Part shown: in pieces, positions 36,359-59,571 of the stretch | Numbering within the stretch: the stretch's first letter is position 1 | How the letters are laid out: every line of letters begins with the position of its first letter | From: Arctopsyche grandis | Taxonomy: Eukaryota > Arthropoda > Insecta > Trichoptera > Hydropsychidae | Assembly (NCBI RefSeq): GCF_051622035.1 | Contig: NC_135360.1 | Span: forward strand, 5,332,001-5,396,000 | DNA: 64,000 bases | Reading direction: 5' to 3' | Translations under genes and position numbers: made by a program | Notes under the pieces: generated by a model | Told to the model about the DNA's origin: nothing | Database searches by the model: none | The model's input: the letters and a program-made list of their open reading frames with translations, nothing else

Positions 36359-37924
36359 TCAAACATCACATTTGCATGGCTTTGCTTTTGTGTGAGATAT
36401 CACGTGTCTACCAAGACTACTTTTTTTTGTAAAGGAATTCAAACAAATATCACATTTGTATGGTATTTCCGCCTTGTGTGTTTTCATGTGTATATTAAGA
36501 CAATGTTTTACGGAAAATGATTCTAAACAAATATTACATTTGTATGGCTTTTCCACCGTGTGAGTTCTCATGTGTGTATAAAGATTACTACTTTGACTAA
36601 ATGATTTTAAGCAAATATTACATTTGTGTGGCTTTTCCCCCGTGTGAGATCTCATATGTTTATGAAGACTATCAATTCGACTAAACGATTTTAAGCAAAC
36701 CTCGCATTTGTGTGGTTTTTCCCCTGTGTGAGATCTCATGTGTATACCAAGATTATTTATTTGAGTAAAGGATTTCAAACAAATATTACATTTGTGTGGT
36801 TTTTCCGCTTTGTGTGTTTTCACGTGTTTACTAAAAATAATTTTTACAGAAAATGTTTCTAAACAAATATTACATTTGTATGGCTTTTCCACCATGTGAG
36901 TTCTCATGTGTGTATAAAGATTACTAATTTGGCTAAATGATTTTAAGCAAACATCACATTTGTGCGGCTTTTCCCCCGTGTGAGATCTCATATGTTTATG
37001 AAGACTATCAATTCGACTAAATGATTTTAAGCAAACCTCACATTTGTGTGGTTTTTCCCCTGTGTGACATCTCATGTGTATAGCAAGACTATTTATTTGA
37101 GTAAAGGATTTCAAACAAATATCACATTTGTGTGGCTTTTCCCCCGTGTGAGTTCTCATGTGTGTATGAAGATTACCAATTTGACTAAATGGTTTTAAGC
37201 AAACCTCACATTTGTGTGGTTTTTTCCCCGTGTGACATCTCATGTGTTTACGAACACTATTTTTAAGAGTAAAGGATTTCAAACAAGTATCACATTGGTA
37301 AATATTCGACAATGGAGACTCTTCCGATGGAATTCCAGCATCACCAGCCCCAAAATCACTCGAAATATCCTTTCCTACGTGCATCTGTAAAGTTAAACGA
37401 ACGTTATATAATGAAAATGAATACAATACGTTTTTAACAAGATTAGAAGCGACTATACCGGAGATGTAATATTTTCCCTCAAATAGATATTTTGTTGGGA
37501 ATCGCTTCTTTCTACGGCACTAGATTTCCAGTCATTCGCCTCGACATTACAAACATTTGGTGACGGATCAACATCTGATTCATCCTTCCATATTAAATCT
37601 TCCAGTAAAACTTCTTCCGGCTTTACATTCAAACTCTCATTCAACGTCAGCTTCGACGTTTCGTTGCTTTGAAGACAATCGTTTCGAAAACTGCTGAGCA
37701 ATTCCAGAGTGTTGATACACGAAATACAGATCGCATCTGGTAACCTGTCACCTCTTTTAACCTGCAAATGAGAGGGGCAGCGATGAATAGTTAATTTGGA
37801 TGACAATAGGATAAAAGTAACTAACCGGCAGTCGACAACAGGTTCGTATGAGTTGTGCCAGTGGATGAGGATTGTCGTGGATGGAGACAGTCGGAGCAGA
37901 ACTAAGACAAAGCCTGCACTCCAT
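36359..37924 (-). CDS. G4: ZAD domain C2H2 zinc-finger protein, 11 fingers
   Basis: Exons 37924-37826, 37761-37459 and 37384-36359, phase 0. The ZAD reads [14 protein letters not shown], then ICISC and RNDCLQS; the acidic linker (LLEDLIWKDESDVDPS) is intact. Eleven regular C2H2 fingers follow, ending KPCKCDV. Two pairs of fingers recur within the gene (SRIDSL and SxxSNL helices), indicating internal duplication. It is head to head with gene A, about 960 bp between start codons, forming block 1 of the array. Presumed nuclear DNA-binding protein. 36191-36358 holds only the shared ZAD 3' tail. Confidence 0.92.
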
Positions 37925-38188
37925 CGCATCGCCCAAGTCTTCTGTCAAAACTGAACAATTGTATTCATCGGTAACATGTAAATCGTTCGAATACTATTCA
38001 CCGAATACTATTCTACTAACGACCAGAGATCAGACGCCGAGATGTTTTTCAGCACAAAAATATGACCAATAACAGGGAGCATGTAAATTGGTCGAATGCT
38101 ATACACCGAAATCCATTCACCGAATGCTATTCCACTAATAACGCTTTCACCGAAAATCTGGAGACCGAAAGTTAAAATCGTCTAATAT

Positions 38189-38778
38189 CTTTATGGTAAT
38201 TGGACTATTCGCCACATTGCGGTGGTCACAAAAACAATTTTTGCCATGAAAATCGCAAATACACAATATTTGGCACTCAAGTTCACGATAAAACTGGTCA
38301 CACCCTAACACTGGTCACGATAAAACTGGTCACACCCGAAAATTGGTCACGAAAAAACTGGTCACACCCAAAAATTAAAAATTGTTCGAATTCTTGGGTG
38401 CGACCAGTTTTTTCGTGACTAATTTTCTCGTTACCATTTTTAGTGTGACGGGTGATTACGTGTGACTGATCTAGAGCGACCGGTCGTCCTGTGACTGGTT
38501 CATATATGACTAGAAGTCCGTTTACCACTAAAATATCATTTTACATTTAGGTTACATAGCTGTAAACGGTTCGGTGATTACTGGTCACAAATTACTCGTC
38601 ACAAAGTCACTAAAATCTCTATGACGGAACAACTGGCAGCCGAAAAGTCCACCATGCTAACGATAACTATCATAGTAACGAGAACTTGAGTGCCAAATAT
38701 TGTGTATTCGCGATTTTCATGGCAAAAATTGTCTTTGTGACCACCCCAATGTGACGAATAGTCCAATTACCGCTGTAA
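38189..38778. repeat. Palindromic repeat between G4 and gene A
   Basis: Outer arms 38189-38283 and 38683-38778 are inverted copies (GGACTATTCGCCACATTG, ATACACAATATTTGGCACTC). The middle contains repeats of ACTGGTCAC / AACTGGTCACACCC (about 38285-38375) and their inverse. It occupies the whole divergent intergenic space, so it likely overlaps the promoter of gene A. The upstream part 38070-38190 is repeat unit P. In block 2 most of this is deleted. Confidence 0.7.
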
Positions 38779-38884
38779 ACTGCGTTAAATTTAGACCAAT
38801 TCTTGAAGGCTATTTTTTGACAGTTATATTATCATTTGACGTTTGCATACGACTTGTTGCAATTAGCGATTTAATACCTAAAAT

Positions 38885-40512
38885 ATGGAATGTAGACTTT
38901 GTCTCTGTTTTACTCCAGTCGGGTCTTCTGTCTCCATCCACGATTATCCTCATCCACTAGTTCAACGCATTTTGGCCTGCTGTCAGCTACAAGTCCGTTA
39001 CAAATACTTTTAACAACTCAATCGGTAACACAACAAAGACTCATTACTATTATTTATTTAACAGGTTAACAAAGACGATTTATTGCCAGATACGATATGT
39101 CTTTTATGTAATAACAATCTTGAATTGTTAAGCAATTTTAGAAACATGTGTATTCAGAATGAAGAAACACAGAAACTAAGGCTGCCCGGGATTTTAAATA
39201 TCAAAAATGAAGAAACTATATTGGATGATTTAATTTGGGAGGATGAGGTTGTAATTGATTCAACATCAAATGTCTGTCAACTGGCTGTTGACGATGAAAT
39301 TAATCAATCAAGCATTTCGGGAAAAGAGTTTTTAGTAAGAGATCATTCAAAGCAAAACGCATTATTAATTGAAAATGATGAATCGGTAAAAAATCAAAAA
39401 TTTGGCGCTTAAGCTTAACCACATGTATGCTTAAAATTGTATAATCGTCGTTTTATTTTCAGGTCAACACAGGAAAATCCACGCTGCAAAACCCATACCG
39501 ATGTGAAGTTTGTTTGCTTTCATTTACTCATAGGTCTACATTAAATAAACATTTAAAAATACACAACAAGGACAGACTGTTCGAGTGCAATATTTGTTCA
39601 AAGTCGTTCACTCAGAAGCGTAATCTAGTGGCTCATATGAAACTGCACGTTGGAACCAAAGCGCTTAAATGCGAAATGTGTCCTAAACTGTTCATTTATG
39701 AAAATGTTCTCAGGGAGCATATAAATTCCCACAAAGGAATAAAACCATTCCAATGTGAAGTTTGTTTGATTTCATTCACTCATAAGTCTGCCTTCGGTAG
39801 ACATGTGAAAACTCACAACTGGGAGAGACTGTTCAAATGCGATATTTGCGCAGAGTCGTTTGCTTTTAAGCGTTACCTGGTGAATCATATAAAATCTCAC
39901 TCTGAGATAAAACCGTACCATTGTGAAATTTGTATGGTTTCATTCGCTCACAGGTACAGGTTCAACCGTCATGCGAAAACTCACACCGGAGAGAAACTAT
40001 TCCAATGCGATATTTGTTCAAAGTCGTTCACTCAGAAGCATAACTTGGAATATCATATAAAATCTCACACTGGGATAAATGAATACCATTGCAAAGTGTG
40101 TCAGCTTTCATTCGCTTGCAAGTACAGGCTCAAGCGTCATGCACAAACTCACGATGGAGAGGAACCACTCAAATGCGATATTTGTTCGAAGTCCTTCACT
40201 CTGAAGCGTAACCTGGTGGTTCATATGAATTCCCACAGAGGCATGAAATCATATCAATGTGAAATTTGTTTGATTTCATTCACTCATAGGTCTAGCCACT
40301 GGCGACACTTAAAAACTCACACTGACGACAGACGGTTCAGATGCGAAATGTGTTCCAAGTCGTTCATGGCTAAAGCTAGCCTTGTGGAGCATATGAATTC
40401 CCACAAAGGAATTAAACCATACCAGTGTGAAGTTTGTTTCAATTCATTCACTCATAAATCCGGCTTCAGTAGGCATGTAAAAACTCACACTATTGTGAGA
40501 CTGTTCGAATAA
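38885..40512 (+). CDS. Gene A: subfamily-2 ZAD C2H2 zinc-finger protein, 12 fingers
   Basis: Exons 38885-38992 (108 nt), 39065-39385 (321 nt) and 39463-40512, phase 0 joins, GT-AG (second donor GTAAAA). The ZAD is MECRLCLCFTPVGSS, QRILACCQLQ, then LLPDTICLLC and FRNMCIQNEE. The acidic linker is ETILDDLIWEDEVV. Twelve C2H2 fingers follow, with less canonical linkers than in subfamily 1 (for example HNKDRLFEC, HVGTKALKC, HSEIKPYHC), so they may be older. The TAA at 40510 is followed 11 bp later by a hAT insertion, so the 3' UTR is replaced by transposon sequence. Presumed nuclear DNA-binding regulator. Confidence 0.9.
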
Positions 40513-40523
40513 GGCATTTGTAT

Positions 40524-41535
40524 TATGGTTTCTGTATTCCCGGACTTCTTCAATTCCCGAGACAAAGGACGGTGCCCGGGATAGCCGGGGACACGTGTAA
40601 AAAAACTATTTTTTCAATTAAATATATTTTTTATTAAAAAAAATATTTATTTATTTACAAAATATAAAAAAAAGTAAACAATACATAATATATGTAATTA
40701 TAAAAGTAAACTTATTTAAAGTAGCGTCTTAATTGTACTAAAATATTTAAATGAGAATCCGAAAGCGTATTTCTAGATTTGGTACAAAAATTTCCAGCAA
40801 TGGAAAAAATTCTTTCATTTTCGGTCAAAGTTGGTTTTATTGTTAAAAGGGATGAAGATTTTTTTTATAAATTATTTCTCGTCATCATGTATGTATATTT
40901 AAATTTCTTTTTTAAAGTCGAGGTTATTTTGTATATTTGTCTTTGATAACTCCTTATTCAATTCTTCATTCATCGTCAAACACATAATTGTTTCATCTTC
41001 TTTCGAATCTAAAAGAGTTTCTTCCATTGTGGAATTGTCAATACAAGAAGGATATACTCGCTTCATAATAGTTTCACCCTAGGATAAACATTCGCTTTTA
41101 TTACAACATTTAAAGAATGTTTTGTTCGGTATAAAATTAGAATTATTTAAAATTTGTGTTAAAAAAACAGCTTTAAGCTCTTATTTCTTCGATTCTTATT
41201 TTCAATTCTTGGAATAATTCATGAATAAGGTCAAGTCCTTCAGTATTGAGATTTTCCAAAAATAGAAATACAAGAAACGATTTTGGCCGAACGCATAGAA
41301 ACATAATGCTTATAAAACTTCCATGTTTGGGGAATGCGCTGTACTTACTGCTAAACAACAAACCTTTTAAAATATTTTACGATTCTTTTTTATATTTGAT
41401 TTATTATTTCCCTTCGCCTAGTCGTGAAAATGTTGTTTATTTTAAAAAATTTTTTAAATCCAATTCCCGGTACAACAAAAATTCCGTGAATTCCCGGGAA
41501 TGTCTGTCCCAGGTCGACCCGGGTCAGAAACCCTA
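40524..41535 (-). mobile_element. hAT relic directly 3' of gene A
   Basis: Ends TATGGTTTCTG and the inverse CAGAAACCCTA; flanks ATTTGTAT (40516-40523) and ATCTGTAT (41536-41543) match at seven of eight positions. On the minus strand about 40840-40710 encodes an intact hAT dimerisation motif: TLTENERIFSIAGNFC, TKSRNTLSDSHLNILV, QLRRYF. Upstream coding is broken. Gene C keeps the empty site (about 59571-59582). A truncated copy follows gene B. Confidence 0.82.
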
Positions 41536-41543
41536 ATCTGTAT

Positions 41544-42295
41544 AATCTGGATTAAGGATGCCATATTACTCGACTTTTTTAGTATCCGGGTAGTCGAATA
41601 TTTCTCAAAATTCCAACCGGGAATTCCTTAAATCGGGGATTAAAATTTAAAAAATCCAGTCATAAATAAACAATTTTATACATAGAAATTTATAAAAAAT
41701 GAAAAATAAATAACGTTTTTGATTCTTTTATGCTAGATTCGGAATATTCTTCAAATATTCCGAATCAAAATATTGTCGTATTTAAAAAAAAAACTAGCAG
41801 AACAACCTCAGTCCTCAAATAGGAAGTTTTATGAACAGATTTTGGACTCGTATTTACATATAACTTGTGTCGCAATTGATTTTGAATCATTTATATGTTG
41901 TTTAAATGAATTTATTGCACCTTAGTATACCCAGATTTAATGTGAATTTTCGGTATTGTTATAAGTTCATGTGCAACTTGGAATTGAATTAAAATAAATT
42001 TTATAACCCAAACGATAATGGATTATTTTATTATACTAACCTATCCAGAACACAGATGGTATGACAATGATAAATCAAAATATTTATTAAATATTTTTAG
42101 ACACAGTGTAAGTATGCCACACCCCTCGAATCCAAAATCGAAGTATTTCTGCTTCTAAATTACATTTCCGAAATTTATTTTTCGGTTTTTAGACATTCGC
42201 TCTTCAAATTGTTTAACGATTTAACCTTTTTCAAAAATGAATAATAAATTTCGAAAAAATATCATTTTAACAGCTTTTCACAAAAAATAAATAAA
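41544..42295. repeat. Shared 3' tail of the ZAD blocks, copy 1
   Basis: Non-coding AT-rich sequence starting TTAAGGATGCC and including CCGGGTAGTCGAATATTTC. It recurs after gene B (49561-50102) and after gene C (59590-59948, continuing at 62925-63250 after two insertions). It marks the right end of the duplicated block. Confidence 0.75.
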
Positions 42296-42600
42296 TGGCG
42301 TCAAAATATGTAATTATAGGGCGGCGGTCAAATTTCGATTGCCCAAAAAAAATGGCTCGCTATTGTCCTACAAAGCAAAAGAGCAAAAACAAGGTTGACA
42401 ATAGTGAACCGGTTTTTGTGAGAAATGGAAACTAAACTGCTGCCCTACATATAATATATCCTTCAGAACACGATAAAAGAAAAATCATTGATTTAATCTT
42501 TCGTACCAGAGCTTCTCCGATTTCTTCAAATCGACCCCCTTTTTTACTAAATCTTTTTACTTTCACTTACTATCACTAGTCAAAAAAAATTGGGCTCTTA
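42296..42600 (+). pseudogene. Copy of the 50103 ORF, interrupted
   Basis: Begins ATGGCGTCAAAATATGTAAT; the product starts MASKYVIIGRRSNFDC and stops at a TAA near 42433, whereas the block-2 copy stays open to 50441. It lies at the right edge of block 1. Not recognised. Confidence 0.3.
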
Positions 42601-42814
42601 TCCGATCGTTTTCATACTTTGTCGAAATGTTTGTGAAATTAGAGATTATTTTTTTTTCGAAATAATATTATTCAATCCCTAGTAGTGATATCTATTATTA
42701 GAAATCGAAATATTAAAGCGCGCAAAAATTCAAAACGAACATATATGCGCGCCCAAATAATTTTAATAGGAGCCGGTCCTATTAAAATTATTTGTGATAC
42801 TGATACGGTAAATA

Positions 42815-44550
42815 TCAAACATCACAATTGTATGGCTTTACTTTTGTGTGAGATCTCATGTGTGTACCAAGACGAGATTTTAGAGCAAATGATTTCAAAC
42901 AAATATCACATTTGTATGGTTTTTCCCCTTTGTGCGTTTTCACGTGTATACTAAGACCATATTTTTCAGCAAATGATTTTAAGCAAACATCACATTTGTG
43001 TGGTTTTTCCCCTGTGTGAGATCTCATGTGTTTATGAAGATTACTAATGTGACTAAATGTTTTTAAGCAAACATCACATTTGTGTGGCTGTTCCCTCGTG
43101 TGAGTTCTCATGTGTGATATAAGATAACTTTTTTCGGCAAATGATTATAAACAAACATCACATTTGTGTGGCTTTTCCCCCGTGTGAGTTCTCATGTGTG
43201 TATGAAGACTATCAATTCGACTAAATGATTTTAAGCAAACCTCGCATTTGTGTGATTTTTCCCGTGTGAGATCTCATGTGTGTATGAAGATTACTAATGT
43301 GACTAAATGGTTTTAAGCAAACATCACATTTGTGTGGCTTTTCCCCCGTGTGAGTTCTCATGTGTGATTTAAGATGCCTTTTTAAGGCAAATGATTTTAA
43401 GCAAATATCACATTTGTGTGGCTTTTCCCCCATGTGTGTATGAAGACCATCAATTCGACTAAATGATTTTAAGCAAACCTCGTATTTCTGTGGTTTTTCC
43501 CCTGTGTGAGATCTCATGTGTGTATGAAGATTACTAATGTGACTAAATGGTTTTAAGCAAACATCACATTTGTGTGGCTTTTCCCCCGTGTGAGTTCTCA
43601 TGTGTGATTTAAGATAACTTTTTTCGGCAAATGATTTTAAACAAACATCACATTTGTGTGGCTTTTCCCCCGTGTGAGTTCTCATGTGTGTATGAAGACT
43701 ATAAATTCGACTAAATGATTTTAAGCAAACATCACATTTGTGTGGCTTTTCCCCCGTGTGAGTTCTTATGTGTGATTTAAGATGCCTTTTTAAGGCGTAT
43801 GATTTTAAGCAAATATCACATTTGTGTGGCTTTTCCCCCGTGTGAGTTCTCATGTGTGTATGAAGACTATCAATTCGACTAAATGATTTTAAGCAAACCT
43901 CGCATTTGTGTGGTTTTTCCCCTGTGTGAGATCTCATGTGTTTATGAAGATTACTAATGTGACTAAATGGTTTTAAGCAAACATCACATTTGTGTGGCTG
44001 TTCCCTCGTGTGAGTTCTCATGTGTGATATAAGATAACTTTTTTCGGCAAATGATTTTAAACAAACATCACATTTGTGTGGCTTTTCCCCCGTGTGAGTT
44101 ATCATGTGTGTATGAAGACTATAAATTCGACTAAATGATTTTAAGCAAACATCACATTTGTGTGGCTTTTCCCCCGTGTGAGTTCTTATGTGTGATTTAA
44201 GATGCCTTTTTAAGGCGTATGATTTTAAGCAAATATCACATTTGTGTGGCTTTTCCCCCGTGTGAGTTCTCATGTGTGTATGAAGACTATCAATTCGACT
44301 AAATGATTTTAAGCAAACCTCGCATTTGTGTGGTTTTTCCCCTGTGTGAGATCTCATGTGTTTATGAAGATTACTAATGTGACTAAATGTTTTTAAGCAA
44401 ACATCACATTTGTGTGGCTGTTCCCTCGTGTGAGTTCTCATGTGTGATATAAGATAACTTTTTTCGGCAAATGATTATAAACAAACATCACATTTGTGTG
44501 GCTTTTCCCCCGTGTGAGTTCTCATGTGTGTATGAAGACTATCAATTCGA
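42815..44550 (-). pseudogene. Decayed 3' finger arrays of G5 (tandem duplicate)
   Basis: Finger-coding sequence continuing downstream of the G5 stop in two other frames: 44441-43221 (about 12 fingers) and 43111-42815 (four fingers, ending KPYNCDV like other family members). 43021-44100 repeats 44351-45430 at an exact offset of 1330 bp, so this is a tandem duplication by unequal crossing-over between fingers. Each unit carries the same 2-nt deletion (about 44590 and 43260) and the same TAA in a finger (44475-44477 and 43145-43147). Not translatable as one protein with G5. Confidence 0.85.
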
Positions 44551-46761
44551 CTAAATGATTTTAAGCAAACCTCGCATTTGTGTGATTTTTCCCGTGTGAG
44601 ATCTCATGTGTGTATGAAGATTACTAATGTGACTAAATGGTTTTAAGCAAACATCACATTTGTGTGGCTTTTCCCCCGTGTGAGTTCTCATGTGTGATTT
44701 AAGATGCCTTTTTAAGGCAAATGATTTTAAGCAAATATCACATTTGTGTGGCTTTTCCCCCATGTGTGTATGAAGACCATCAATTCGACTAAATGATTTT
44801 AAGCAAACCTCGTATTTCTGTGGTTTTTCCCCTGTGTGAGATCTCATGTGTGTATGAAGATTACTAATGTGACTAAATGGTTTTAAGCAAACATCACATT
44901 TGTGTGGCTTTTCCCCCGTGTGAGTTCTCATGTGTGATTTAAGATAACTTTTTTCGGCAAATGATTTTAAACAAACATCACATTTGTGTGGCTTTTCCCC
45001 CGTGTGAGTTCTCATGTGTGTATGAAGACTATAAATTCGACTAAATGATTTTAAGCAAACATCACATTTGTGTGGCTTTTCCCCCGTGTGAGTTCTTATG
45101 TGTGATTTAAGATGCCTTTTTAAGGCGTATGATTTTAAGCAAATATCACATTTGTGTGGCTTTTCCCCCGTGTGAGTTCTCATGTGTGTATGAAGACTAT
45201 CAATTCGACTAAATGATTTTAAGCAAACCTCGCATTTGTGTGGTTTTTCCCCTGTGTGAGATCTCATGTGTTTATGAAGATTACTAATGTGACTAAATGG
45301 TTTTAAGCAAACATCACATTTGTGTGGCTGTTCCCTCGTGTGAGTTCTCATGTGTGATATAAGATAACTTTTTTCGGCAAATGATTTTAAACAAACATCA
45401 CATTTGTGTGGCTTTTCCCCCGTGTGAGTTATCATGTGTGATTTAAGATACCTTTTTTCGGCGTATGATTTTAAGCAAATATCACATTTGTGTGGCTTTT
45501 CCCCCGTGTGAGTTCTCATGTGTGTATGAAGACCATCAATTCGACTAAATGATTTTAAGCAAACATCACATTTGTGTGGCTTTTCCCCCGTGTGAGTTCT
45601 CATGTGTGATATAAGAGAACTTTTTTCGGCAAATGATTTTAAACAAACATCACATTTGTGTGGCTTTTCCCCCGTGTGAGTTCTCATGTGTGATTTAAGA
45701 TGCCTTTTTAAGGCAAATGATTTTAAGCAAATATCACATTTGTGTGGCTTTTCCCCCGTGTGAGTTCTCATGTGTGTATGAAGACCATCAATTCGACTAA
45801 ATGATTTTAAGCAAACATCACATTTGTGTGGCTTTTCCCCCGTGTGAGTTCTCATGTGTGTATGAAGATTATCAATACGACTAAATGATTTTAAGCAAAC
45901 ATCACATTTGTGTGGCTTTTCCCCAGTGTGAGATTTAATGCCTCCATCAAGATATCCTTTTTGAGTAAACATTTTTGTACAAACTTCACGTTTGCTTGAT
46001 TTTATTCCAGGGTGACATTTTATGCTTGTAAGAAGATCACTTTCTTTTGAAAACGATTTTTCTTCAGTGTGAAAAGACAAATGTTTCACAATAGTAGATT
46101 TTTGAGAAAATGATTTTAAACAAATATCACATTGGTAAATATTCGGTGAAGGACACTCTTCCGATGGAATTCCAGCATCACCAGCCCCAAAATCACTCGA
46201 AATATCCTTTCCTACGTGCATCTGTAAAGTTAAACGAACGTTATATAATGAAAATGAATACAATACGTTTTTAACAAGAATAGAAGCGACTATACCGGAG
46301 ATGTAATATTTTCCATCAAATAGATATTTTGTTTTGAAACGCTTCTTTCTAAGGCACTAGATTTCCAGTCATTCGCCTCGTCATTACAAACATTTGGTGA
46401 CGAATCAACATCTGATTCATCCTCCCATATTAAATCTTCCAGTAAAACTTCTTCCGTCTTCACATTCAAACTCTCATTCAACGTCAGCGTCGAAGTTTCG
46501 TTGCTTTGAAGACAATCGTTTCGAAAACTGCTGAGCAATTCCAGAGTGTTGATACACGAAAGGCATATCCCATCTGGCAAGCCGTCACCTCTTTTAACCT
46601 GCAAATGAGAGGGGCAGCGATGAATAGTTAATTTGGATGACAATTGGATAAAAGTAACTAACCGGCAGTCGACAACAGGTTCGTATGAGCTGTGCCAGTG
46701 GATGAGAATTGTCGTGGATGGAGACAGTCGGAGCAGAACTAAGACAAAGCCTGCACTCCAT
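44551..46761 (-). CDS. G5: ZAD domain C2H2 zinc-finger protein, about 17 fingers
   Basis: Exons 46761-46663, 46598-46296 and 46221-44551, phase 0. ZAD (MECRLCL, ICLSC, RNDCLQS) and acidic linker ([16 protein letters not shown]) are intact. The first finger is regular, the next two are degenerate as in G2 and G6, then comes a long run of fingers drawn from a few repeated modules (SRIDSL, ALKRHL, AEKSYL, SHISNL). One late finger has lost its first Cys (QKYEVC) and part of its end. A 2-nt deletion near 44590 shifts the frame into [11 protein letters not shown] and a stop. The protein up to that point should fold and could bind DNA. It is the longest array in the window. Confidence 0.88.
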
Positions 46762-47027
46762 CGCATCGCCCAAGTCTTCTGTCAAATCTGAACAATTGTA
46801 TTCAACGGTAACATGTAAATCGTTCGAATACTATTCACCGAATACTATTCTACTAATGACCAGAGATCAGACGCCGAGATGTTTTTCAGCACAAAAATAT
46901 GACCAATAACAGGGAGCATGTAAATTGGTCGAATGCTATACACCGAAATCCATTCACCGAATCCTATTCCTCTAATAACGCTTTCACCGAAAATCTGGAG
47001 ACCGAAAGTTAAAATCGTCTAATATCT

Positions 47028-47189
47028 TATGGAGGATGAACGAATGAGACGACTGGCATGCTAATGCACGTGTTTATTATATGACAGCTGAAGACAGAGT
47101 GAGTAGTGGCTCTCCGAACCCAGCCGGGTTGGTCCCCACTCGCAGGAAGGCAACCAAACTCGACCATGTCGTATAAGCGAGCCGCCACA
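47028..47189 (-). mobile_element. Solo LTR-like insertion, family L, copy 1
   Basis: 162 bp; on the minus strand it starts TGTGGCGGCTCGC and ends near CATCCTCCATA, with an AATAAA-like TATAATAAACACGTG in its second half. ATCT is duplicated on both sides (47024-47027 and 47190-47193), and the related site at about 38173-38180 is uninterrupted. A 4-bp duplication and TG start fit a short Gypsy solo LTR; no internal region is present. It looks whole and young. Confidence 0.75.
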
Positions 47190-47280: not shown

Positions 47281-48820
47281 AGTTCAACGCATTTTGGCCT
47301 GCTGTCAGCTACAAGTCCGTTACAAATACTTTTAACAACTCAATCGGTAACACAACAAAGACTCATTACTATTATTTATTTAACAGGTTAACAAAGACGA
47401 TTTATTGCCAGATACGATATGTCTTTTATGTAATAACAATCTTGAATTGTTAAGCAATTTTAGAAACATGTGTATTCAGAATGAAGAAACACAGAAACTA
47501 AGGCTGCCCGGGATTTTAAATATCAAAAATGAAGAAACTATATTGGATGATTTAATTTGGGAGGATGAGGTTGTAATTGATTCAACATCAAATGTCTGTC
47601 AACTGGCTGTTGACGATGAAATTAATCAATCAAGCATTTCGGGAAAAGAGTTTTTAGTAAGAGATCATTCAAAGCAAAACGCATTATTAATTGAAAATGA
47701 TGAATCGGTAAAAAATCAAAAATTTGGCGCTTAAGCTTAACCACATGTATGCTTAAAATTGTATAATCGTCGTTTTATTTTCAGGTCAACACAGGAAAAC
47801 CCATACCGTTGTGAAGTTTGTTTGATTTCATTTACTCATAGGTCTACATTAAATAAACATTTAAAAATACACAACAAGGACAGACTGTTCGAGTGCAATA
47901 TTTGTTCAAAGTCGTTCACTCAGAAGCGTAATCTAGTGGCTCATATGAAACTGCACGTTGGAACCAAAGCGCTTAAATGCGAAATGTGTCCTAAACTGTT
48001 CATTTATGAAAATGTTCTCAGGGAGCATATAAATTCCCACAAAGGAATAAAACCATTCCAATGTGAAGTTTGTTTGATTTCATTCACTCATAAGTCTGCC
48101 TTCGGTAGACATGTGAAAACTCACAACTGGGAGAGACTGTTCAAATGCGATATTTGCGCAGAGTCGTATGCTTTTAAGCGTTACCTGGTGAATCATATAA
48201 AATCTCACTCTGAGATAAAACCGTACCATTGTGAAATTTGTATGGTTTCATTCGCTCACAGGTACAGGTTCAACCGTCATGCGAAAACTCACACCGGAGA
48301 GAAACTATTCCAATGCGATATTTGTTCAAAGTCGTTCACTCAGAAGCATAACTTGGAATATCATATAAAATCTCACACTGGGATAAATCAATACCATTGC
48401 AAAGTGTGTCAGCTTTCATTCGCTTGCAAGTACAGGCTCAAGCGTCATGCACAAACTCACGATGGAGAGGAACCACTCAAATGCGATATTTGTTCGAAGT
48501 CCTTCACTCTGAAGCGTAACCTGGTGGTTCATATGAATTCCCACAGAGGCATGAAATCATATCAATGTGAAATTTGTTTGATTACATTCACTCATAGGTC
48601 TAGCCACTGGCGAAACTTAAAAACTCACACTGACGACAGACGGTTCAGATGCGAAATGTGTTCCAAGTCGTTCATGGCTAAAGCTAGCCTTGTGGAGCAT
48701 ATGAATTCCCACAAAGGAATTAAACCATACCAGTGTGAAGTTTGTTTCAATTCATTCACTCATAAATCCGGCTTCAGAAGGCATGTAAAAACTCACACTA
48801 TTGTGAGACTGTTCGAATAA
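47281..48820 (+). pseudogene. Gene B: headless copy of gene A
   Basis: Exon 2 (47387-47707) and the finger exon (to 48820) are almost identical to gene A, but the start codon and the first Cys pair of the ZAD are gone: the sequence jumps from repeat unit P (TTTGGCACT) into the last 12 codons of exon 1 (QRILACCQLQ). A 14-nt deletion after the exon-3 acceptor puts the fingers out of phase unless the next CAG, ending at 47794, serves as acceptor. Finger 10 has lost a His ligand (HWRNLKTH). All 12 fingers are otherwise open. Probably non-functional unless transcribed from another promoter with an internal start. Confidence 0.85.
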
Positions 48821-48831
48821 GGCATTTGTAT

Positions 48832-49557
48832 TATGGTTTCTGTATTCCCGGACTTCTTCAATTCCCGAGACAAAGGACGGTTGCCGGGATACCCGGGGAC
48901 ACGTGTAAAAAAACTATTTTTTCAATTAAATATATTTTTTATTAAAAAAAATATTTATTTATTTACAAAATATAAAAAAAAGTAAACAATACATAATATA
49001 TGTAATTATAAAAGTAAACTTATTTAAAGTAGCGTCTTAATTGTACTAAAATATTTAAATGAGAATCCAAAAGCGTATTTCTAGATTTGGTACAAAAATT
49101 TCCAGCAATGGAAAAAACTCTTTCATTTTCGGTCAAAGTTGGTTTTATTGTTAAAAGGATGAAGATTTTTTTTATAAATTATTTCTCGTCATCATGTATG
49201 TATATTTAAATTTCTTTTTTAAAGTCGAGGTTATTTTATATATTTGTCTTTGATAACTCCTTATTCAATTCTTCATTCATCGTCAAACACATAATTGTTT
49301 CATCTTCTTTCGAATCTAAAAGAGTTTCTTCCATTGTGGAATTGTCAATACAAGAAGGATATACTCGCTTCATAATAGTTTCACCGTAGGATAAACATTC
49401 GCTTTTATTACAACATTTAAAGAATGTTTTGTTCGGTATAAAATTAGAATTATTTAAAATTTGTGTTAAAAAAACAGCTTTAAGCTCTTATTTCTTCGAT
49501 TTTTATTTTCAATTCTTAGAATAATTCATGAATGAGGTCAAGTCCTTCAGTATTGAA
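48832..49557 (-). mobile_element. hAT relic 3' of gene B, truncated copy
   Basis: Copy of the hAT at 40524, inherited with the block duplication. It keeps the left end and the dimerisation motif but its right end is deleted at 49557, where it joins the shared 3' tail. A 22-bp tandem duplication (CCGGGTAGTCGAATATTTCT) follows at the junction. Confidence 0.8.
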
Positions 49558-49560: not shown

Positions 49561-50102
49561 CGGGTAGTCGAATATTTCTATCCGGGTAGTCGAATATTTC
49601 TCAAAATTACAACCGGGAATTCCTTAAATCCGGGATTAAAATTTAAAAAATCCTGTCATAAATAAACAATTTTATACATAGAAATTTATAAAAAATGAAA
49701 AATAAATAACGTTTTTGATTCTTATATGCTAGATTCGGAATATTCCGAATCAAAATATTGTCGTCTTTAAAAAAAAAACTAGCAGAACAACCTCAGTCCT
49801 CAAATAGGAAGTTTTATGAACAGATTTTGGACTCGTATTTACATATAACTTGTGTCCCAATTGATTTTGAATCATTTATATGAAGTTTAAATGAATTTAT
49901 TGCACCTTAGTATACCCACCTTTAATGTGAATTTTCGGTATTGTTATAAGTTCATGTGCAACTTGCTTCTAAATTACATTTCCGAAATTTATTTTTCGGT
50001 TTTTAGACATTCGCTCTTCAAATTGTTTAACCTTCGCTCTTCAAATGAATTATAAATTTCGAAAAAATATCATTTTAACACCTTTTCACATAAAATAAAT
50101 AA
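49561..50102. repeat. Shared 3' tail of the ZAD blocks, copy 2
   Basis: Counterpart of 41544-42295, shortened by a deletion near 49965. Non-coding. Confidence 0.7.
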
Positions 50103-50441
50103 ATGGCGTCAAAATATGTAATTATAGGGCGGCAGTCAAATTTCTATTGCTCACAAAAAATGGCTCGTTATTGTCCTACAAAGCAAAAGAGCAAAAAAAA
50201 GGTTTACAATAGTGAACCGGTTTTTGTGGGAAATGGAAACGTAACTGCTGCCCTACATATAATTTCTCCTCCAGAACACGATAAAAGAAAAATCATTGAT
50301 TTAATCTTTCGTACCAGAACTTCTCCGATTTCTTCAAATCGACCCCCTTTTTTACTAACCTCTTTTTACTTTCACTTACGATCACTAGTCAAAAAAAATT
50401 TCTTATCCGATCGTTTTCATACTTTGTCGAAATGTTTGTGA
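50103..50441 (+). CDS. Hypothetical 112-codon ORF at the block edge
   Basis: Product starts MASKYVIIGRQSNFYC and runs through PTKQKSKKKVYNSEP and KRKIIDLIFRT. I recognise no family. Cysteines and basic residues are frequent at the start. The homologous stretch at 42296 is interrupted, and none is obvious after gene C, so coding status is doubtful; it may be a fragment of an older gene or element carried along with the block. Confidence 0.25.
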   Translation: MASKYVIIGRQSNFYCSQKMARYCPTKQKSKKKVYNSEPVFVGNGNVTAALHIISPPEHDKRKIIDLIFRTRTSPISSNRPPFLLTSFYFHLRSLVKKNFLSDRFHTLSKCL

Positions 50442-50605
50442 AATTCGAGATTATTATTTTTTTTTCAAAATAATATTATTCAATCCCTAGTAGTGATATC
50501 TATTATTAGAACTCGAAATATTAAAGCGCGCAAAAATTCAAAACGTACATATATGCGCGCCCCCGGCTCCTATTAAAATTATTTGTGATACTGATACGGT
50601 AAATA

Positions 50606-50935
50606 TCAAACATCACATTTGTATGGCTTTACTTTTGTGTGAGATCTCATGTGTGTACCAAGACGAGATTTTAGAGCAAATGATTTCAAACAAATATCAC
50701 ATTTGTATGGTTTTTCCCCTTTGTGCGTTTTCACGTGTATACTAAGACCATATTTTTCAGCAAATGATTTTAAGCAAACATCACATTTGTGTGGTTTTTC
50801 CCCTGTGTGAGATCTCATGTGTTTATGAAGATTACTAATGTGACTAAATGGTTTTAAGCAAACATCACATTTGTGTGGCTGTTCCCTCGTATGAGTTCTC
50901 ATGTGTGATGTAAGATAACTTTTTTCGGCAAATGA
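50606..50935 (-). pseudogene. Last fingers of G6 beyond its stop
   Basis: In the same frame as G6 and directly after its TAA come four more fingers (AEKS, SHISNL, AEKYGL and ALKSRL helices) ending KPYKCDV. They would be added only by stop readthrough. The same stop is present twice in G5's decayed tail, so it predates the G5/G6 split. Confidence 0.8.
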
Positions 50936-52396
50936 TTATAAACAAACATCACATTTGTGTGGCTTTTCCCCCGTGTGAGTTCTCATGTGTGTATGAAGAC
51001 TATCAATTCGACTAAATGATTTTAAGCAAACCTCGCATTTGTGTGGTTTTTCCCCTGTGTGAGATCTCATGTGTGTATTAAGATTACTAATGTGACTAAA
51101 TGGTTTTAAGCAAACATCACATTTGTGTGGCTTTTCCCCCGTGTGAGTTCTCATGTGTGATTTAAGATAATTTTTTTCGGCAAATGATTTTAAACAAACA
51201 TCACATTTGTGTGGCTTTTCCCCCGTGTGAGTTCTCATGTGTGATTTAAGATGCCTTTTTATGGCAAATGATTTTAAGCAAATATCACATTTGTGTGGCT
51301 TTTCCCCCGTGTGAGTTCTTATGTGTGTATAAAGATTACCAATTTGACTAAATGATTTTAAGCAAACATCACATTTGTGTGGTTTTTCTCCTGTGTGAGA
51401 TCTCATGTGTTTATGAAGATTACTAATGTGACTAAATAGTTTTAAGCAAACATCACATTTGTGTGGCTTTTCCCCCGTGTGAGTTCTCATGTGTGTATGA
51501 AGATTATCAATACGACTAAATGATTTTAAGCAAACATCACATTTGTGTGGCTTTTCCCCAGTGTGAGATTTAATGCCTCCATCAAGATATCCTTTTTGAG
51601 TAAACATTTTTGTACAAACTTCACGTTTGCTTGATTTTATTCCAGGGTGACATTTTATGCTTGTAAGAAGATCACTTTCTTTTGAAAACGATTTTTCTTC
51701 AGTGTGAAAAGACAAATGTTTCACAATAGTAGATTTTTGAGAAAATGATTTTAAACAAATATCACATTGGTAAATATTCGGTGAAGGACACTCTTCCGAT
51801 GGAATTCCAGCATCACCAGCCCCAAAATCACTCGAAATATCCTTTCCTACGTGCATCTGTAAAGTTAAACGAACGTTATATAATGAAAATGAATACAATA
51901 CGTTTTTAACAAGATTAGAAGCGACTATACCGGAGATGTAATATTTTCCATCAAATAGATATTTTGTTTTGAAACGCTTCTTTCTAAGGCACTAGATTTC
52001 CAGTCATTCGCCTCGTCATTACAAACATTTGGTGACGAATCAACATCTGATTCATCCTCCCATATTAAATCTTCCAGTAAAACTTCTTCCGTCTTCACAT
52101 TCAAACTCTCATTCAACGTCAGCGTCGAAGTTTCGTTGCTTTGAAGACAATCGTTTCGAAAACTGCTGAGCAATTCCAGAGTGTTGATACACGAAATACA
52201 GATCGCATCTGGTAACCTGTCACCTCTTTTAACCTGCAAATGAGAGGGGCAGCGATGAATAGTTAATTTGGATGACAATAGGATAAAAGTAACTAACCGG
52301 CAGTCGACAACAGGTTCGTATGAGCTGTGCCAGTGGATGAGGATTGTCGTGGATGGAGACAGTCGGAGCAGAACTAAGACAAAGCCTGCACTCCAT
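50936..52396 (-). CDS. G6: ZAD domain C2H2 zinc-finger protein, 8 intact fingers
   Basis: Exons 52396-52298, 52233-51931 and 51856-50936, phase 0. ZAD ([26 protein letters not shown]) and acidic linker are intact. Finger 1 is regular, two degenerate fingers follow ([26 protein letters not shown]), then seven regular ones; the protein stops inside the next finger at TAA 50938-50936. Helices match modules of G5, with one unique (SQIGNLYT, shared with G2 and G4). It is the minus-strand half of block 3, its partner gene C lying 5.3 kb away because of later insertions. Confidence 0.9.
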
Positions 52397-52612
52397 CGCA
52401 TCGCCTAAGTCTTCTGTCAAAACTGAACAATTGTATTCATCGGTAACATGTAAATAGTTCGAATACTATTCACCGAATGCTATTCTACTAACGACCAGAG
52501 ATCAGACGCCGAGATGTTTTTAATCCAAATTCGTCGAGATAAGTTGAAGGTAAGGCAGTGAAATATAAACTTGCCTTCTCCCAAAGCTGTGGAAATATAC
52601 TTGCTATTTCAC

Positions 52613-53557
52613 AGTTGGTCCAAAAATTATCTTTTTAATTTGGGCCAACTTTTTAACCAGCAGGATAAAACCAGTAGCGTTCAAAATATCGAAATAAAAA
52701 TTAAATTTCAAAATTGAAATTAAATATCAAATTTAAAACTATTATTATTATATTAAAATTAAATTCAAATATCAAAATAAAATTATAATCATTATATTAA
52801 AATTAAATTAAAATATCGAAAGTTAAAACAGAACATGCCCAATTTAAATAAATTTTCGAGATTGACCTAAAATAAGATCATCAACAATCACATACAGGTA
52901 ATCCTCGACTTAAAATGTTTTGACTTACGAAGATATGCACTAAGATCGAAAAAAAATCAAAGAATTATTATTTTTACTTCCCCGTAATGCACAGTTACTG
53001 AGAATATATCATGTGCTAGTATGGGTGACCGAGCGATGGTCCCAACCCGGTACGTTGTCGGTTTATTAAAAGAATTTTTTTTATTCTTCAATTGTTTCTC
53101 TCGTCGAAATAAATCAATTAATTAAATCATTTCAGAGGTAAATTTTATCGGATAATGTGTGATTTTTAATTTTATTTCGACGAAAGAAAAAAAAACCCTT
53201 TGACAAATCACCGACAACCGACATCGACAGTTTTTTTTATTAAATGTTTCATCGACGGCCGAAACACAGTAGTATATCGTGACGACTTTTAAGAAATAAT
53301 AACAAGGTTTTTTTTCGCTAGTAATCAGAGAAATTATAATATTTCTCTGTTTGTAAATGTGTATCGTCGTAATTCAAAACATTGTTGTAATTCAAAACAT
53401 CAACGATGATATAATTTTAGGTCAATCTTGCTCTTTAGCTTAATTTTGATATTTAATTTCAATTTTTTAATTTAATTTTTATTTCGATATTTTGTACGCT
53501 ACTGGTTTTTAAAGTTGGCCCAAAATCGTCGTTGGTTTGGTCCGTACGCAGCATAAC
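52613..53557 (+). mobile_element. Long-TIR non-autonomous element, family T, copy 1
   Basis: About 945 bp. The right end reads ACGATATTTTGTACGCTACTGG-like sequence into TTGGTTTGGTCCGTACGCAG; the left end is its imperfect inverse (GGGCCAACTTTTTAACCAGC). The inverted copy is at 59949-60897. An inner pair of inverted words (GTAATCCTCGACTTA near 52910 and TCGTCGTAATTCAAAACA near 53365) suggests a nested second palindrome. No coding capacity. The superfamily is not evident. 52519-52612 before it contains short palindromes only. Confidence 0.7.
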
Positions 53558-53675
53558 GTAACGTATTTTCGCGCTTAGAACGGCTCCCACGTGTGGGGAG
53601 CGAATGGCGAACAAGTGTCCTTCCAGGAAATGCGTTAAGATCTGTTCATACATAACAGCAGTGTTCAGACTATGT

Positions 53676-54010
53676 CTGATGATCGGCTTTCGTGGCTTTA
53701 CGACCCACGATATTTTTGTGCTGGCCACCCTGAGACAGCGGTTGGCACACAAACTGACAGTTGTCGATAGCGGTTTGGCGCGTAATCACCCCGGTCCTTA
53801 CGGGGCCCACCTCGCCACCGAAATCACCAGCTAGAGGCTGGTGAGGGCTGTGACGATACTTGGAGACCAGCTTTAGTATCCGTCCGGTGTGCACCAGAGG
53901 AAGCTTGGTCTGTCTTCGTCCAGAAGGCAGACAACTGAGCTACGCGTGGCCAACCTCAAAGGGCACGCGTGGTTACTTTGTTACTCCCCCCCTGTCCCCC
54001 CTGATTGATC

Positions 54011-54085
<75 letters not shown>

Positions 54086-54285
54086 CAGTCACCATACAAA
54101 CAGAATTACAACCTGTTTTCATTATTATACAATTTCCCGCCTTTGTCCTGTATCACACTCACTTACGCACACTGTACGAGAGAGAGCGAGATATACATCG
54201 AGCCGAGCCGACATCAGCAGAGACCAGACCACCGACGACGAAGGAAGGCACCTTGAGGAGATCAGCCCCGCCCAAGCTTACCACT
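53676..54285 (+). mobile_element. Gypsy-type solo LTR fossil
   Basis: Starts TGTCTGATGATCGG, the same opening as the LTR at 33610, followed by the shared GGCTTTACGACCCACGAT. It ends near CCCAAGCTTACCA; ACTA near both borders may be a target duplication. No internal region is present. It contains a long TA microsatellite. It looks like an old solo LTR; the right border is uncertain. Confidence 0.5.
54015..54081. repeat. TA microsatellite, about 33 units
   Basis: Uninterrupted TATATA tract inside the LTR fossil. Length is likely to be polymorphic and may be misassembled. Confidence 0.95.
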
Positions 54286-54639
54286 AGCTATTTCACAAAA
54301 CCGACTTCGGGGGTGCTCTCGAGTTGAACATCCCTGGAGTCTGTACAAGCAGTATCCGTTTACATCACTACACGTCTCCGTCTCGAATACGCCAGTTCTA
54401 TTCATATTTACCGACACAGCACGGTTCCGGCATTTTGGCCGAATGCAAGGCAAAATCGGCTTACGTATACATTTCTGAAGCGCGACGATAAGACCCAAAT
54501 TAGCTTGCGTAGGGGCCAAAATAAAACGTTTCTGAAAATATTCAATTGCGTGTGCGTAACCACACGTGAGCAATTGACACATTAAAATTCGCAACTAAGG
54601 TGACAGTAAGTTATCAAAAATGTTTCACCTATCGAATGA

Positions 54640-55131
54640 AGATTTTTGTACGTAATTGCATTGTTTCTAGAGTTGTGCCGGCGGGAAAAAACCCGGCTTA
54701 TTCCCGGGAATAAACCTTTATCTTTATATTTACCTTTATCTTTATGTTTGAAACTCGGCTACTACTGGCTTGAAACTCGAAATTCCGTGAATTTATCTTT
54801 CAATATAAAGATGGTTCGGTGATTACTGGTCACAAAGTACTCGTCATGAAGTCACTAAAATCTCTATAACGGAACATTTGACAGCCGAAAACTCCATCAT
54901 ACTAACGAGAACTTAAGTGCCAAATATTGTGTATTCGCGATTTTCATGGCAAAAATTGTCTTTGTGGCCACGGGAATGTGACGAATAGTCCAATTACCAT
55001 AAAGATATTGGACGAATTTACCTTTCGGTCTCCTTATTTTCGGTGAAAGCGTTATTAGTGGAATAGCATTCGGTGAATGTACTTCGGTGTATAGCATTCG
55101 ACCAATTTACATGCTCCCTGTTATTTTTGTG
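54640..55131 (-). repeat. Intergenic repeat unit P, inverted copy
   Basis: Reverse complement of the unit at 14936-15395 (TTCCCGGGAATAAACC at the left, TTTACATGCTCCCTGTTA at the right). In blocks 1 and 2 this unit runs directly from the subfamily-1 promoter in the opposite orientation, so the segment has been inverted in block 3. Confidence 0.7.
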
Positions 55132-55859
55132 CTTAATTGTGAATTATGGGTGCATTATAAAAAGTGTTTTTTTTTTGTTACATTTACAATTCTATGTTAA
55201 ACAATAAAAATCTATTTACAAACTTATTAATAACAAGAACAAAAGGAAAACATTTTAAGTGGAACTATTCGATATTTTGATGCCGCAAATTTATCTATTT
55301 TATTATCACAATCTAATAAATTCACGACGTCACTTTCAATGAACATCACTGTTAAATTATTTAAGTTATCTTTATTTAACGAATTCGTTAAATTATTTTT
55401 AACTCGTTTCAAAACTGAAAATTAACGTTCACCACTTGCATTATACATCTATAGGAAGCGTTAGGAAAATTCTTAAAATTGTTTCAATACCCGGAAACGT
55501 TGACTTTAAACCTCGAGGTTATAATTTATAAATATCGACAGAATTCGTAATATTTTCACTTTGACATATGCCATAAAATGTACAATTTTAACTTTAAAAT
55601 CATTTTTATATTTTGAAATTATTCGTTCAACACATTCGTTAAATTCATTTTCAATTATTTCGAAATTAAAAAATAATTTAAAATTTTTTAGCACACTATC
55701 GTAAATTGAATTTCTTCTTGTTATTTCCGAAATTAATGCATCACAATAAAGTTTACTTTTTGACTAAAATTAACTTCATCGCATATCTCCCCAAATTGCA
55801 ATTTTCTTTTTTTACGTCTAGTGTCTTTTATTGCTGATGTACTCGTATTGCTGATTTCA

Positions 55860-55999: not shown

Positions 56000-56002
56000 T
56001 AG

Positions 56003-56215: not shown

Positions 56216-56432
56216 TGGCTAAAAACCTTCCTACCTAGCGAATTTTAAAAGTCAACGTTTCAAAAGAGATTTTATCATTGTTCCCAACAACAAATTGTGC
56301 TACATATTTTTTAACGATTTATTTTTAAAATTGATGCGTTGTAATAATTTATACCACAAATTAGTTAGCAGTGCCGTATCATATTCATTAAAATATACTG
56401 CCAACTTTTTGCCTCCAATTTTCCCATAGGTT

Positions 56433-56593
56433 TATGGGGGATGAACGAATGAGACGACTGGCATGTTAACGCACGTGTTTATTATATGACAGCTAAAGGC
56501 AGAGTGGTAGTGGCTCTCCGAACCCAACCGGGTTGGTCCCCACTCGCAGGAAGGCAACCAAACTCGACCATGTCGTATAAGCGAGCCGCCACA
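56433..56593 (-). mobile_element. Solo LTR-like insertion, family L, copy 2
   Basis: 161 bp, same sequence as 47028-47189, inside the hAT relic. GGTT is duplicated on both sides (56429-56432 and 56594-56597). Looks whole and young. Confidence 0.75.
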
Positions 56594-57649
56594 GGTTTTT
56601 CAAATTCAGACGTACTGATTTTAATAAGAGCTTGTTTATTATTTTGATAGTTTGATTTTAAAGCAAAAACAGCATCTGCTCTAGATGCTCATCGCGTACT
56701 GTTTATTCTTTTTAAATGTTGGTTATTCGAAATATTACTTAAAAAAATATTCTATAAGCTTTAATAAAATCAAAATAATATAACGCACCTAAACAGGATT
56801 CTGCAGCATAGTTCCCAATTAAGTTTAGGTATGACTAGCGCATGGTATAAAGGTGGTTGTATTACAATGATGTAATATTCTAGCCTGCAAACCTTTGAAT
56901 TTTCCAACCATATTGGCTCCATTGTCATATGATTTTCCCCTACATTTAGAAATATCTAAATATTCAGATTCGTGTTTTTCAATATTTAAAAATCCAAAGA
57001 AACGCTCTTTTATATCTCTATTTTTATCCACAAATCTCAAGATTAATGCTAACTGGTCTATATGAGATACATCAGGAGTTGAGTCGACTAGTGAAACGCA
57101 TAGGCTTTGTAGTGAAATGCATAGGAAATTCCGAAATACATATGATAATTTTTCTTAGAACGATTTGGAGACCCCTTCAATTTGAAGGCCACAGATATGC
57201 ACCAATTCCGCTGTGCGATAATCTGCCACTGCTTGCACTACTACTAATACTACATACGGTACTATTACATTATCGCAAAAGAAATCTAAAATGGATGAGT
57301 TGAAATATTTAGATGTGATTTTAATCACGATTTCAGGCATGCAATCAATATGGAATTACAAACAATAGAATATTCAAAAAATATAAAAGTTGTGCTAAAA
57401 TAGTCATATTATCACATTAACCCTTTCCTCTCCGAATTGAAGGGCAGATACAATAAATGTGACTAATAAAAACGAAAGCGAGAAAATTTTTAAAGTAATG
57501 AAGTAACAAAATATCAATTTAGATTTAGAGTACATGGCTGTACACTGCGTTCAATTTAGACCAAATCTCGACGATTATTTTTTGACAGCTGTGTTACCAA
57601 TTGACGTTTCCATATGTCTCGTTCGAATTAGCGATTTATTATCTGAATT

Positions 57650-59389
57650 ATGGAATGCAGACTTTGTCTCCGTTCTGCTCCAGTCGAGTCCTCTGTGTCC
57701 ATCCATGATTATCCTCATCCACTAGTTCAACGTATTTTGGCCTGCTATCAGCTACAAGTCCATTACAAATACTTTTAACAACTCAACCGGTAACACAATA
57801 GAGACTCATTGCTATTATTTATTTTACAGGTTAACAGAGATGATTTGTTGCCAGATACGATATGTCTTTTATGTAAAAACAATCTTGGATTGTTAAGCAA
57901 TTTTAGAAACATGTGTATTCAGAATGAAGAAACACAGAAACTAAGGCTAGCCGAGATTTTCGATATCAAAACTGAAGAAATTATATTGGACGATTTAAAT
58001 TGGAAATACGAGATCGGTATAAATTCGACATTGAATGTCTGTCAACCAGCCGTTGACAATGATATCAATGAATCAAAGTCAAGCAATCTGGGAAAACAGT
58101 CTTCGGAAGGAGATCATTCAAAGCAAAACGCCATATCAATAAAAAATGAAAACGTCAGTAAAATTTCAAAATTTGGCGCTTAAGCGTAACAGACATGCCA
58201 TTAATTGAACAATTGTTGTTTTATTTTACAGATACTTAGAGGAGAATTCACGCACGAAAACCAATATAGATGTGAAACTTGTTCTAAATTATTCACTGGC
58301 AAAGCTAGTCTCGTTGAGCATATGAAATCTCACAAAGGGTTAAAACCTTACAATTGCGAAGCTAGGTTCAAGTGCGAAATCTGTTTAAAGTCGTTCTCAC
58401 ACAAACATACCTTTCTAGGTCATATGAATATCCACAAAGGAATAAAACCGTACCAATGCGAAGTTTGTTTCAATTCGTTCTCTTATAAGTCTAACTTCTA
58501 CAGTCATAGAAAAACTCACTTCGAGAAGAGACGGTTCAAATGCAAAATGTGTTCTAAATTGTTGAATTCAAAAGCTACCCTCGTGGAGCATATGAATTCC
58601 CACAAAGGAATGAAACCATTCCAATGTGACGTTTGTTTGATTTCGTTCACTCGTAGGTCTAACCTTAATACACATACAAAAATTCACACCGAGGAGAGAC
58701 AGTTCAAATGCGAAATCTGTTCTAAATCGTTCATTGGTAAAGCCAACCTCATCGAGCATGTGAATTCTCACAAAGGGATAAAACCATACCAGTGTGGAAT
58801 TTGTTTGATTTCATTCACTCATGGGTCTGCCTTCAGTAGACATGTAAAAACTCACACCCAGGAGAGACTGTTTAAATGCGATATTTGCCCAGAGTCGTTT
58901 TCGATTAAGCGTAACCTAGTGAATCATATGATATCTCATTCCGAGATAAAACCATACCACTGCGAAATTTGTCTGAATTCATTCGCTTGCAAGTATAGGT
59001 TCAAGCGTCATGCGAAAACTCACACCAGAGAGAAACTATTCAAATGCGACATTTGTTCAAAGTCGTTCACCGTGAAGCATAACCTAGTGTTTCATATGCA
59101 ATCTCACACTGGGAAAAAACCATACCATTGTAAAGTTTGTCTGGTTTCATTCACTCGCAAGTATACGCTCAATCTTCATGCAAAAACTCACAATGAAAAG
59201 ACAGAAGACTCAAATGGAAAGAAATCACTCGAATGCGAAATTTGTTCGAAGTCGTTCACTGTGAAGCGTAACCTAGTGGAACATTTGAATTCCCACAAAG
59301 GAATAAAATCATATCAATGTGAAATTTGTCTGGTTTCATTCTCTCATAGGGTTAGCCACTGGCGACATGTAAAAAGTCACACCAATTAG
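57650..59389 (+). CDS. Gene C: subfamily-2 ZAD C2H2 zinc-finger protein, 13 fingers
   Basis: Exons 57650-57757, 57830-58153 and 58232-59389, phase 0; the second donor is GTCAGT, chosen because it keeps phase with the ATA start of exon 3. ZAD: MECRLCLRSAPVESS, QRILACYQLQ, LLPDTICLLC, FRNMCIQNEE; linker EIILDDLNWKYEIGIN, less acidic than in A. The array starts with one regular finger, a fragment (YNCEAR), then 12 more fingers. TAG at 59387-59389 follows HTN; two further fingers remain open in the same frame to 59571, so the protein is shortened compared with gene A. The G6/gene C pair is block 3. Confidence 0.9.
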
Positions 59390-59571
59390 ACACGATTCAG
59401 ATGCAAAGTGTGTTCCAAGTTGTTCATTGCTAAATTTTATCTTATGGAGCATGTGAATTACCACAAAGGAATAAAATCACACCGGTGTGAAGTTTGTTTG
59501 ATTTCATTCACTCATGGGTCCGCCTTCAGTAGACATGAAAAAACTCACAACAAGGAGAGACAGTTCAAATA
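59390..59571 (+). pseudogene. Last two fingers of gene C beyond its stop
   Basis: In frame after the TAG: FRCKVCSKLFIAK and HRCEVCLISFTHG, ending with a TAA that aligns with the gene A stop. They match the last two fingers of gene A, so the TAG is a recent nonsense change or a readthrough site. Confidence 0.8.

Follow-up and report, generated by a model that had tools for sequence, protein, structure and literature searches.

The 64,000-nucleotide stretch of Arctopsyche grandis contig NC_135360.1 analysed here (the window, in whose own coordinates all positions are given) contains a cluster of genes for ZAD-C2H2 zinc-finger proteins, with six minus-strand genes of one subfamily (subfamily 1, G1 to G6) and, on the plus strand, two genes (A and C) and a partial copy (B) of another, subfamily 2 (Table 1). 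Both subfamilies follow one plan, three exons of which the first two encode a zf-AD domain and a linker and the third an array of C2H2 fingers, and they are about 63 to 65% alike across exon 1, intron 1 and part of exon 2. The zf-AD domain (PF07776) scored above the Pfam cut-off in all eight whole ZADs (G1 to G6, A and C); the G4 query was two residues (VQ) longer than the gene model where exons 1 and 2 meet, and the other five G genes were scanned as final gene-model proteins. The same eight have CxxC at both ends of the ZAD. By pattern, the eight gene models (B excluded) contain 8 to 16 regular C2H2 fingers each, and Pfam C2H2 families were found in the two arrays scanned, those of G4 and A. 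Introns are phase 0 in every model but C, whose frame requires a nearby alternative donor, GTCAGT, four bases before the obvious GTAAAA; the reading frames of G1 to G4 and A are open throughout. A PDB sequence search with the G4 ZAD gave one weak match, 7pok (LD15650p; E 0.068). Intact members of the cluster are predicted to be DNA-binding regulators that dimerise through the ZAD.

The window was compared with itself, matches of at least 80 bp being kept and those of at least 120 bp listed, and compared again with the finger arrays masked, keeping matches of at least 60 bp. Matches of hundreds of bases at 78 to 100% identity are far beyond chance. G4, G5 and G6 stand head-to-head with A, B and C, respectively, with the strands and order of the original prediction and over the span it gave, from the end of G4 exon 3 at 36359 to the end of homology to the C array near 59570-59584. 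The blocks upstream of the three G genes are indeed common (G4 and G5, 96.2% identical; G4 and G6, 96.8%; G5 and G6, 97.7%), as is a 3' tail found at 41536-41991 for A, 49565-49976 for B, and 59576-59941 plus 62909-63193 for C. All three pairs had also been described as ZAD zinc-finger genes, which holds for G4, G5, G6, A and C; B is not a whole gene. Four of the six G genes have a partner or the trace of one, G2 and its subfamily-2 relic (15399-15568) forming a fourth, decayed pair beyond the three predicted. The three intergenic regions are not equivalent: that of G4/A is compact, that of G5/B holds a duplication junction, and that of G6/C contains repeats and an apparent inversion. G4/A is the only intact, compact pair.

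Table 1. Features of the ZAD-C2H2 cluster, in window coordinates.
Feature	Position	Strand	Remarks
Subfamily-1 start codons, G1 to G6	5679, 14787, 27095, 37924, 46761, 52396	-	gene models
Subfamily-2 sequences	A start 38885; C start 57650; copy B 47277-49556	+	gene models/homology
G4, intact subfamily-1 ZAD-C2H2 gene	36359-37924; exons 37924-37826, 37761-37459, 37384-36359	-	475 aa, 11 regular fingers
A, intact subfamily-2 ZAD-C2H2 gene	38885-40512; exons 38885-38992, 39065-39385, 39463-40512	+	492 aa, 13 regular fingers
G4/A intergenic region, 960 bp	37925-38884		G-side upstream block, truncated element copy, imperfect palindromic repeat 38297-38466, A-side element copy, A upstream
Element resembling a miniature inverted-repeat transposable element (MITE), upstream of A, 204 bp	38568-38771	-	between two 9-bp GCTGTAAAC copies
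Segment probably copied in tandem: A minus its 5' end, spacer, G5 with upstream element	38955-47280		from junction topology
G5, ZAD intact	44551-46761	-	690 aa, 16 regular fingers, then frameshift
Duplication junction	47277-47280		CACT common to G5 upstream element and A exon 1
B, copy of A lacking the 5' end (matches 38955-41249, 98.6%)	47277-49556	+	ancestral start absent, 14-bp loss at exon 3 start
Spacer and G6 3' flank	49565-50606		paralogous to 41567-42815, 38 substitutions in 1033 aligned
G6, ZAD intact	50936-52396	-	440 aa, 8 regular fingers, early stop; finger homology on to 50607
Apparently inverted segment in G6/C intergenic region	52523-55133		G upstream block breaks at 52522, resumes on other strand at 55133
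Complete G-side element copy, 186 bp	54813-54998	-	ATCTTTAT both sides; in inverted part of G6/C region
C, subfamily-2 gene, 81-83% to A	57650-59389	+	last fingers cut off
C tail continuation	62909-63193	+	84% to 41919-42212, after ~3-kb insertion 59942-62908
A-like partner relic, head-to-head with G2	15399-15568	+	finger 1 (85 bp, 95.3% to A) joined to piece of later finger

The most recent duplication can be read from its breakpoints. Homology between A and B, which extends over 2295 aligned bases, starts at 38955, inside A exon 1 and 70 bases into the coding sequence. Left of the junction, which lies 515 bp from the G5 start, B runs into the element upstream of G5. A is intact leftward beyond 38955, and the G6-side element is complete and extends past the matching break point. 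This left break, the CACT join, the intact sequence left of it in A and the continuation of the G6 element form the pattern expected of one tandem duplication. A-G5 and B-G6 match collinearly through the spacer and the 3' flank of the G gene, and so do the starts of G5 and G6; these two genes show no differences in 400 bases at their finger-side end and 19 in 1091 over the 5' part. Boundaries differing between the subfamilies had been expected to mean that each gene was duplicated independently; the copied block indeed does not enclose the head-to-head pair, but independent single-gene duplication is rejected for this event in view of the collinear spacers, A and the convergent G5 having been copied together. 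The proposal that the pair is the duplicated unit therefore fails here: the breaks do not lie outside both genes, the left one cutting A exon 1 and the right one falling in the element upstream of G5. Most probably, this is a young, lineage-specific ZAD-C2H2 cluster that grows by segmental duplication and loss, and its newest copy is a segment of about 8 kb running from A exon 1 to the G5 element.

The head-to-head pair might instead have been duplicated in every event, the 5' end of B being deleted later. Orientation, the presence of both families and the tails common to all three pairs would fit such a history, as would the concordance of G2 and its partner relic with G4/A. However, the G5 element is joined directly to A exon 1 and the G6 element is complete, so a pair copy followed by deletion would have had to arrive at this arrangement by coincidence. 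A and B are 0 to 1.4% apart over gene and 3' flank, versus 3.5% for G4 and G5. Among the 17 sites at which G2, G4, G5 and G6 divide two against two, ten join G5 with G6 and seven, in one 22-bp patch, join G4 with G6; none joins G4 with G5, yet copying of G4/A to give G5/B would need such sites, which speaks against pair copying. Nor are partners equally diverged: for A and C the nonsynonymous (dN) and synonymous (dS) divergences are 0.136 and 0.343, against 0.029 and 0.0475 for G4 and G6, a seven-fold gap in dS. We consider repeated copying of the pair, up to and including the newest event, quite unlikely. The mismatch between the A/C and G4/G6 divergences is likely due to gene conversion among the G genes, because the 17 sites form a mosaic of two runs, seven then ten, with one switch in 16 steps (permutation P 0.00016), and because the start of exon 3 in G4 differs from that in G5 and G6.

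Several results weigh against a single copying of the 8-kb segment. The approximately unbiased (AU) test on the whole G block keeps the G4+G5 grouping that pair copying predicts (p-AU 0.108; without the 22-bp patch, which was picked after inspection, 0.041), and the tree that groups G5 with G6 falls short of the best tree by 0.72 in log likelihood, so that the branching of G4, G5 and G6 is not settled. Divergence is uneven along the segment (0/508, 7/1046, 10/719, 38/1033 and 19/1091), the first count covering the exon 1-intron 2 part common to A and B and the last the 5' part of G5 and G6; a single event then requires later conversion or uneven mutation. Finally, transversions make up 37 of the 45 differences between A and B in exon 3 plus spacer (39463-40522 and 41567-42815 versus 47785-48830 and 49565-50606), 21 of them A-T or C-G swaps. 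No such strong excess appears elsewhere (14/39 for G1/G3, 4/10 for the A/B 3' flank, 11/19 for the G5/G6 5' part), the regions for these counts having been picked after inspection of the data.

This odd excess in part of the comparison, the high identity and a break within a gene would also be compatible with an assembly artifact, in which the two haplotypes of a single locus were set side by side as A-G5 and B-G6. The junction, however, shares only 4 bp, which we judge too short for an assembler overlap. The array of G5, which continues past the frameshift to 42816 (42816-46060), comprises 37.4 units of 84 bp and that of G6 11.4, a distance of about 26 units, and a 163-bp insertion and an apparent inversion further separate the copies, which is much for two alleles. 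An artifact of this kind seems to us very unlikely, and tandem duplication of the segment is preferred.

An older duplication may have followed the pair after all. G2 and G4 are 94.1% identical across the block upstream and the first exons, and 95.5% over 89 bp of 3' flank, whereas the 3' flanks of G4 and G5 are 70.7% identical. Because G2 and its relic match G4/A concordantly (94.1%, and 95.3% over 85 bp), duplication of a whole pair giving rise to G2 with its partner and to G4/A is plausible, and for this earlier event the pair may have been the unit, as originally proposed. In the relic, finger 1 and the sequence upstream of it abut at a common ATAGGT, as read by eye, which suggests a microhomology deletion.

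The history of the cluster would then run as follows. An old head-to-head pair, with subfamily 1 on the minus and subfamily 2 on the plus strand, would have spread, leaving G2 with its relic, G4/A and G6/C. More recently, microhomology-mediated joining would have produced a tandem copy of the 8-kb segment, which extends from A exon 1 through the spacer and the convergent G5 to the upstream element. B and G6 would be this copy, making the G5/B pair a by-product in which B was decapitated. Gene conversion would have mixed subfamily-1 sequences, and MITE-like elements would have inserted separately on the G and A sides.

The original prediction listed a shared intergenic repeat and took the divergent layout across several copies to suggest a shared control region. 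Copies of the repeat do occur on both the G and the A sides, but they are transposon-like insertions at different target sites. On the G side, G2, G4, G5 and G6 all show the insertion, in truncated form in G4 and G5; at C, the site of the A-side element is uninterrupted and empty (128 identical of 163 aligned). Insertions of hAT elements produce 8-bp target-site duplications, and the copies here are flanked by repeats of about that length, ATCTTTAT beside the G6 copy and GCTGTAAAC, of 9 bp, beside the A copy. Any terminal inverted repeats are weak, the element aligning with its own reverse at 65.6% with gaps; we therefore use "MITE, hAT-like" as a presumptive label, taken from target-site length. 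The G4/A region contains inverted arms, 93-94% identical, for which a palindromic promoter was considered and rejected, the arms being element copies. Between G5 and B there is a second repeat, of 163 bp (47027-47189), which recurs at 56432-56593 and 63808-63971.

Because the target sites differ and the C site is empty, the intergenic repeat is no evidence for a common control region and does not qualify as a conserved control sequence; so far as the sequence goes, the argument for co-regulation loses its basis. One might still suppose that co-regulation from a bidirectional promoter in each intergenic region maintains the divergent layout, and the G4/A start codons, 960 bp apart and belonging to two intact genes, would agree with this. 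Yet the starts of G6 and C are 5253 bp apart, across repeats and the apparent inversion, and B has neither the ancestral start nor the ancestral upstream region. Moreover, a search of the window at E 1e-3, limited to hits starting outside known genes, yielded no partner for G1 or G3 beyond short AT-rich matches. Shared bidirectional promoters are thus an unlikely explanation for the layout.

The truncated copy B lacks the upstream region of A, the ancestral start codon and the first CxxC, and has lost 14 bp early in exon 3, in a stretch that, as far as the first finger, is equally long in A and C. With the ordinary acceptor, exon 3 reads V-N-T-G-K-P-I-P-L and then a stop, nine codons in all. 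A chimeric reading can be constructed, in which the transposon-like element upstream of G5 supplies an in-frame start at 47249, its MKIANTQYLA being followed by LVQRILACC, and another AG 10 bases downstream (exon 3 from 47795) would bring the frame into the intact finger array. This reading covers only positions 24-70 of 75 in the zf-AD profile, yet scores 34.8 bits against a cut-off of 28. The finger arrays of A and B show 7 differences in 1017 bases (dN 0.0074, dS 0.0050), too few for a test of constraint. The alternative start and acceptor are a possibility and not evidence of function. That B is a newborn chimeric gene, a half-ZAD finger protein which, expressed from the divergent promoter of G5, might compete at the DNA sites of A without dimerising, is to our minds highly doubtful.

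The locus falls within the known evolution of ZAD-ZNF clusters and represents ordinary gene-family turnover. Passages on Drosophila clusters, such as Oddjob-Nicknack, attribute shared intron/exon structures to segmental duplication and describe a similar organization, with an N-terminal ZAD, a linker and a C2H2 array, in tandem clusters with gains, losses and partial copies; unlike the clusters described there, this one has two anciently split subfamilies alternating on opposite strands, with MITE-like insertions between them (PMC7655104). The Cucoid clade of fly ZAD-ZNF genes likewise shows common introns and tandem duplication, and gene conversion has been proposed as one cause of tree conflicts in the family, but the relevant passages describe no array of head-to-head pairs (PMC9810180). 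No such array of ZAD pairs appeared among the papers listed by searches of an open-licence library. In Drosophila yakuba, according to passages of another study, tandem duplications break genes, recruit non-coding sequence and form chimeric genes; the G5/B junction similarly joins a gene fragment to foreign upstream sequence through a duplication that ignored gene boundaries, although expression was measured in that work, while B is known from sequence alone and has a further frameshift (PMC5460883). The locus offers a worked example of how alternating inverted arrays mislead, orientation being periodic while only breakpoints reveal the copied unit. It also shows a fragment of a regulator gene fused to element-derived upstream sequence, and adjacent genes whose histories have been decoupled, probably by gene conversion.

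An Rfam scan of 36000-64000 gave no matches at the gathering threshold, and 38300-40600 had no match in a phage DNA collection. Part of the G5 array repeats at a shift of 1330 bp with 91.9% identity, and the two open reading frames have the same frameshifted ending. Within the 2.6-kb G6/C segment that appears to be inverted, a 0.92-kb repeat (52639-53557) has an inverted copy at 59942-60864, 93.7% identical. The resumption of the C tail at 62909-63193 suggests that a further minus-strand G gene may follow past the end of the window. G1 and G3 have a duplicate block of their own, 3656-6373 versus 24943-27656, in pieces that are 84, 95 and 98% identical, with different upstream sequence. Two long inverted repeats, 15858-17845 versus 18803-20772 and 28381-29197 versus 31532-32352, are 97.7% and 98.9% identical, respectively.

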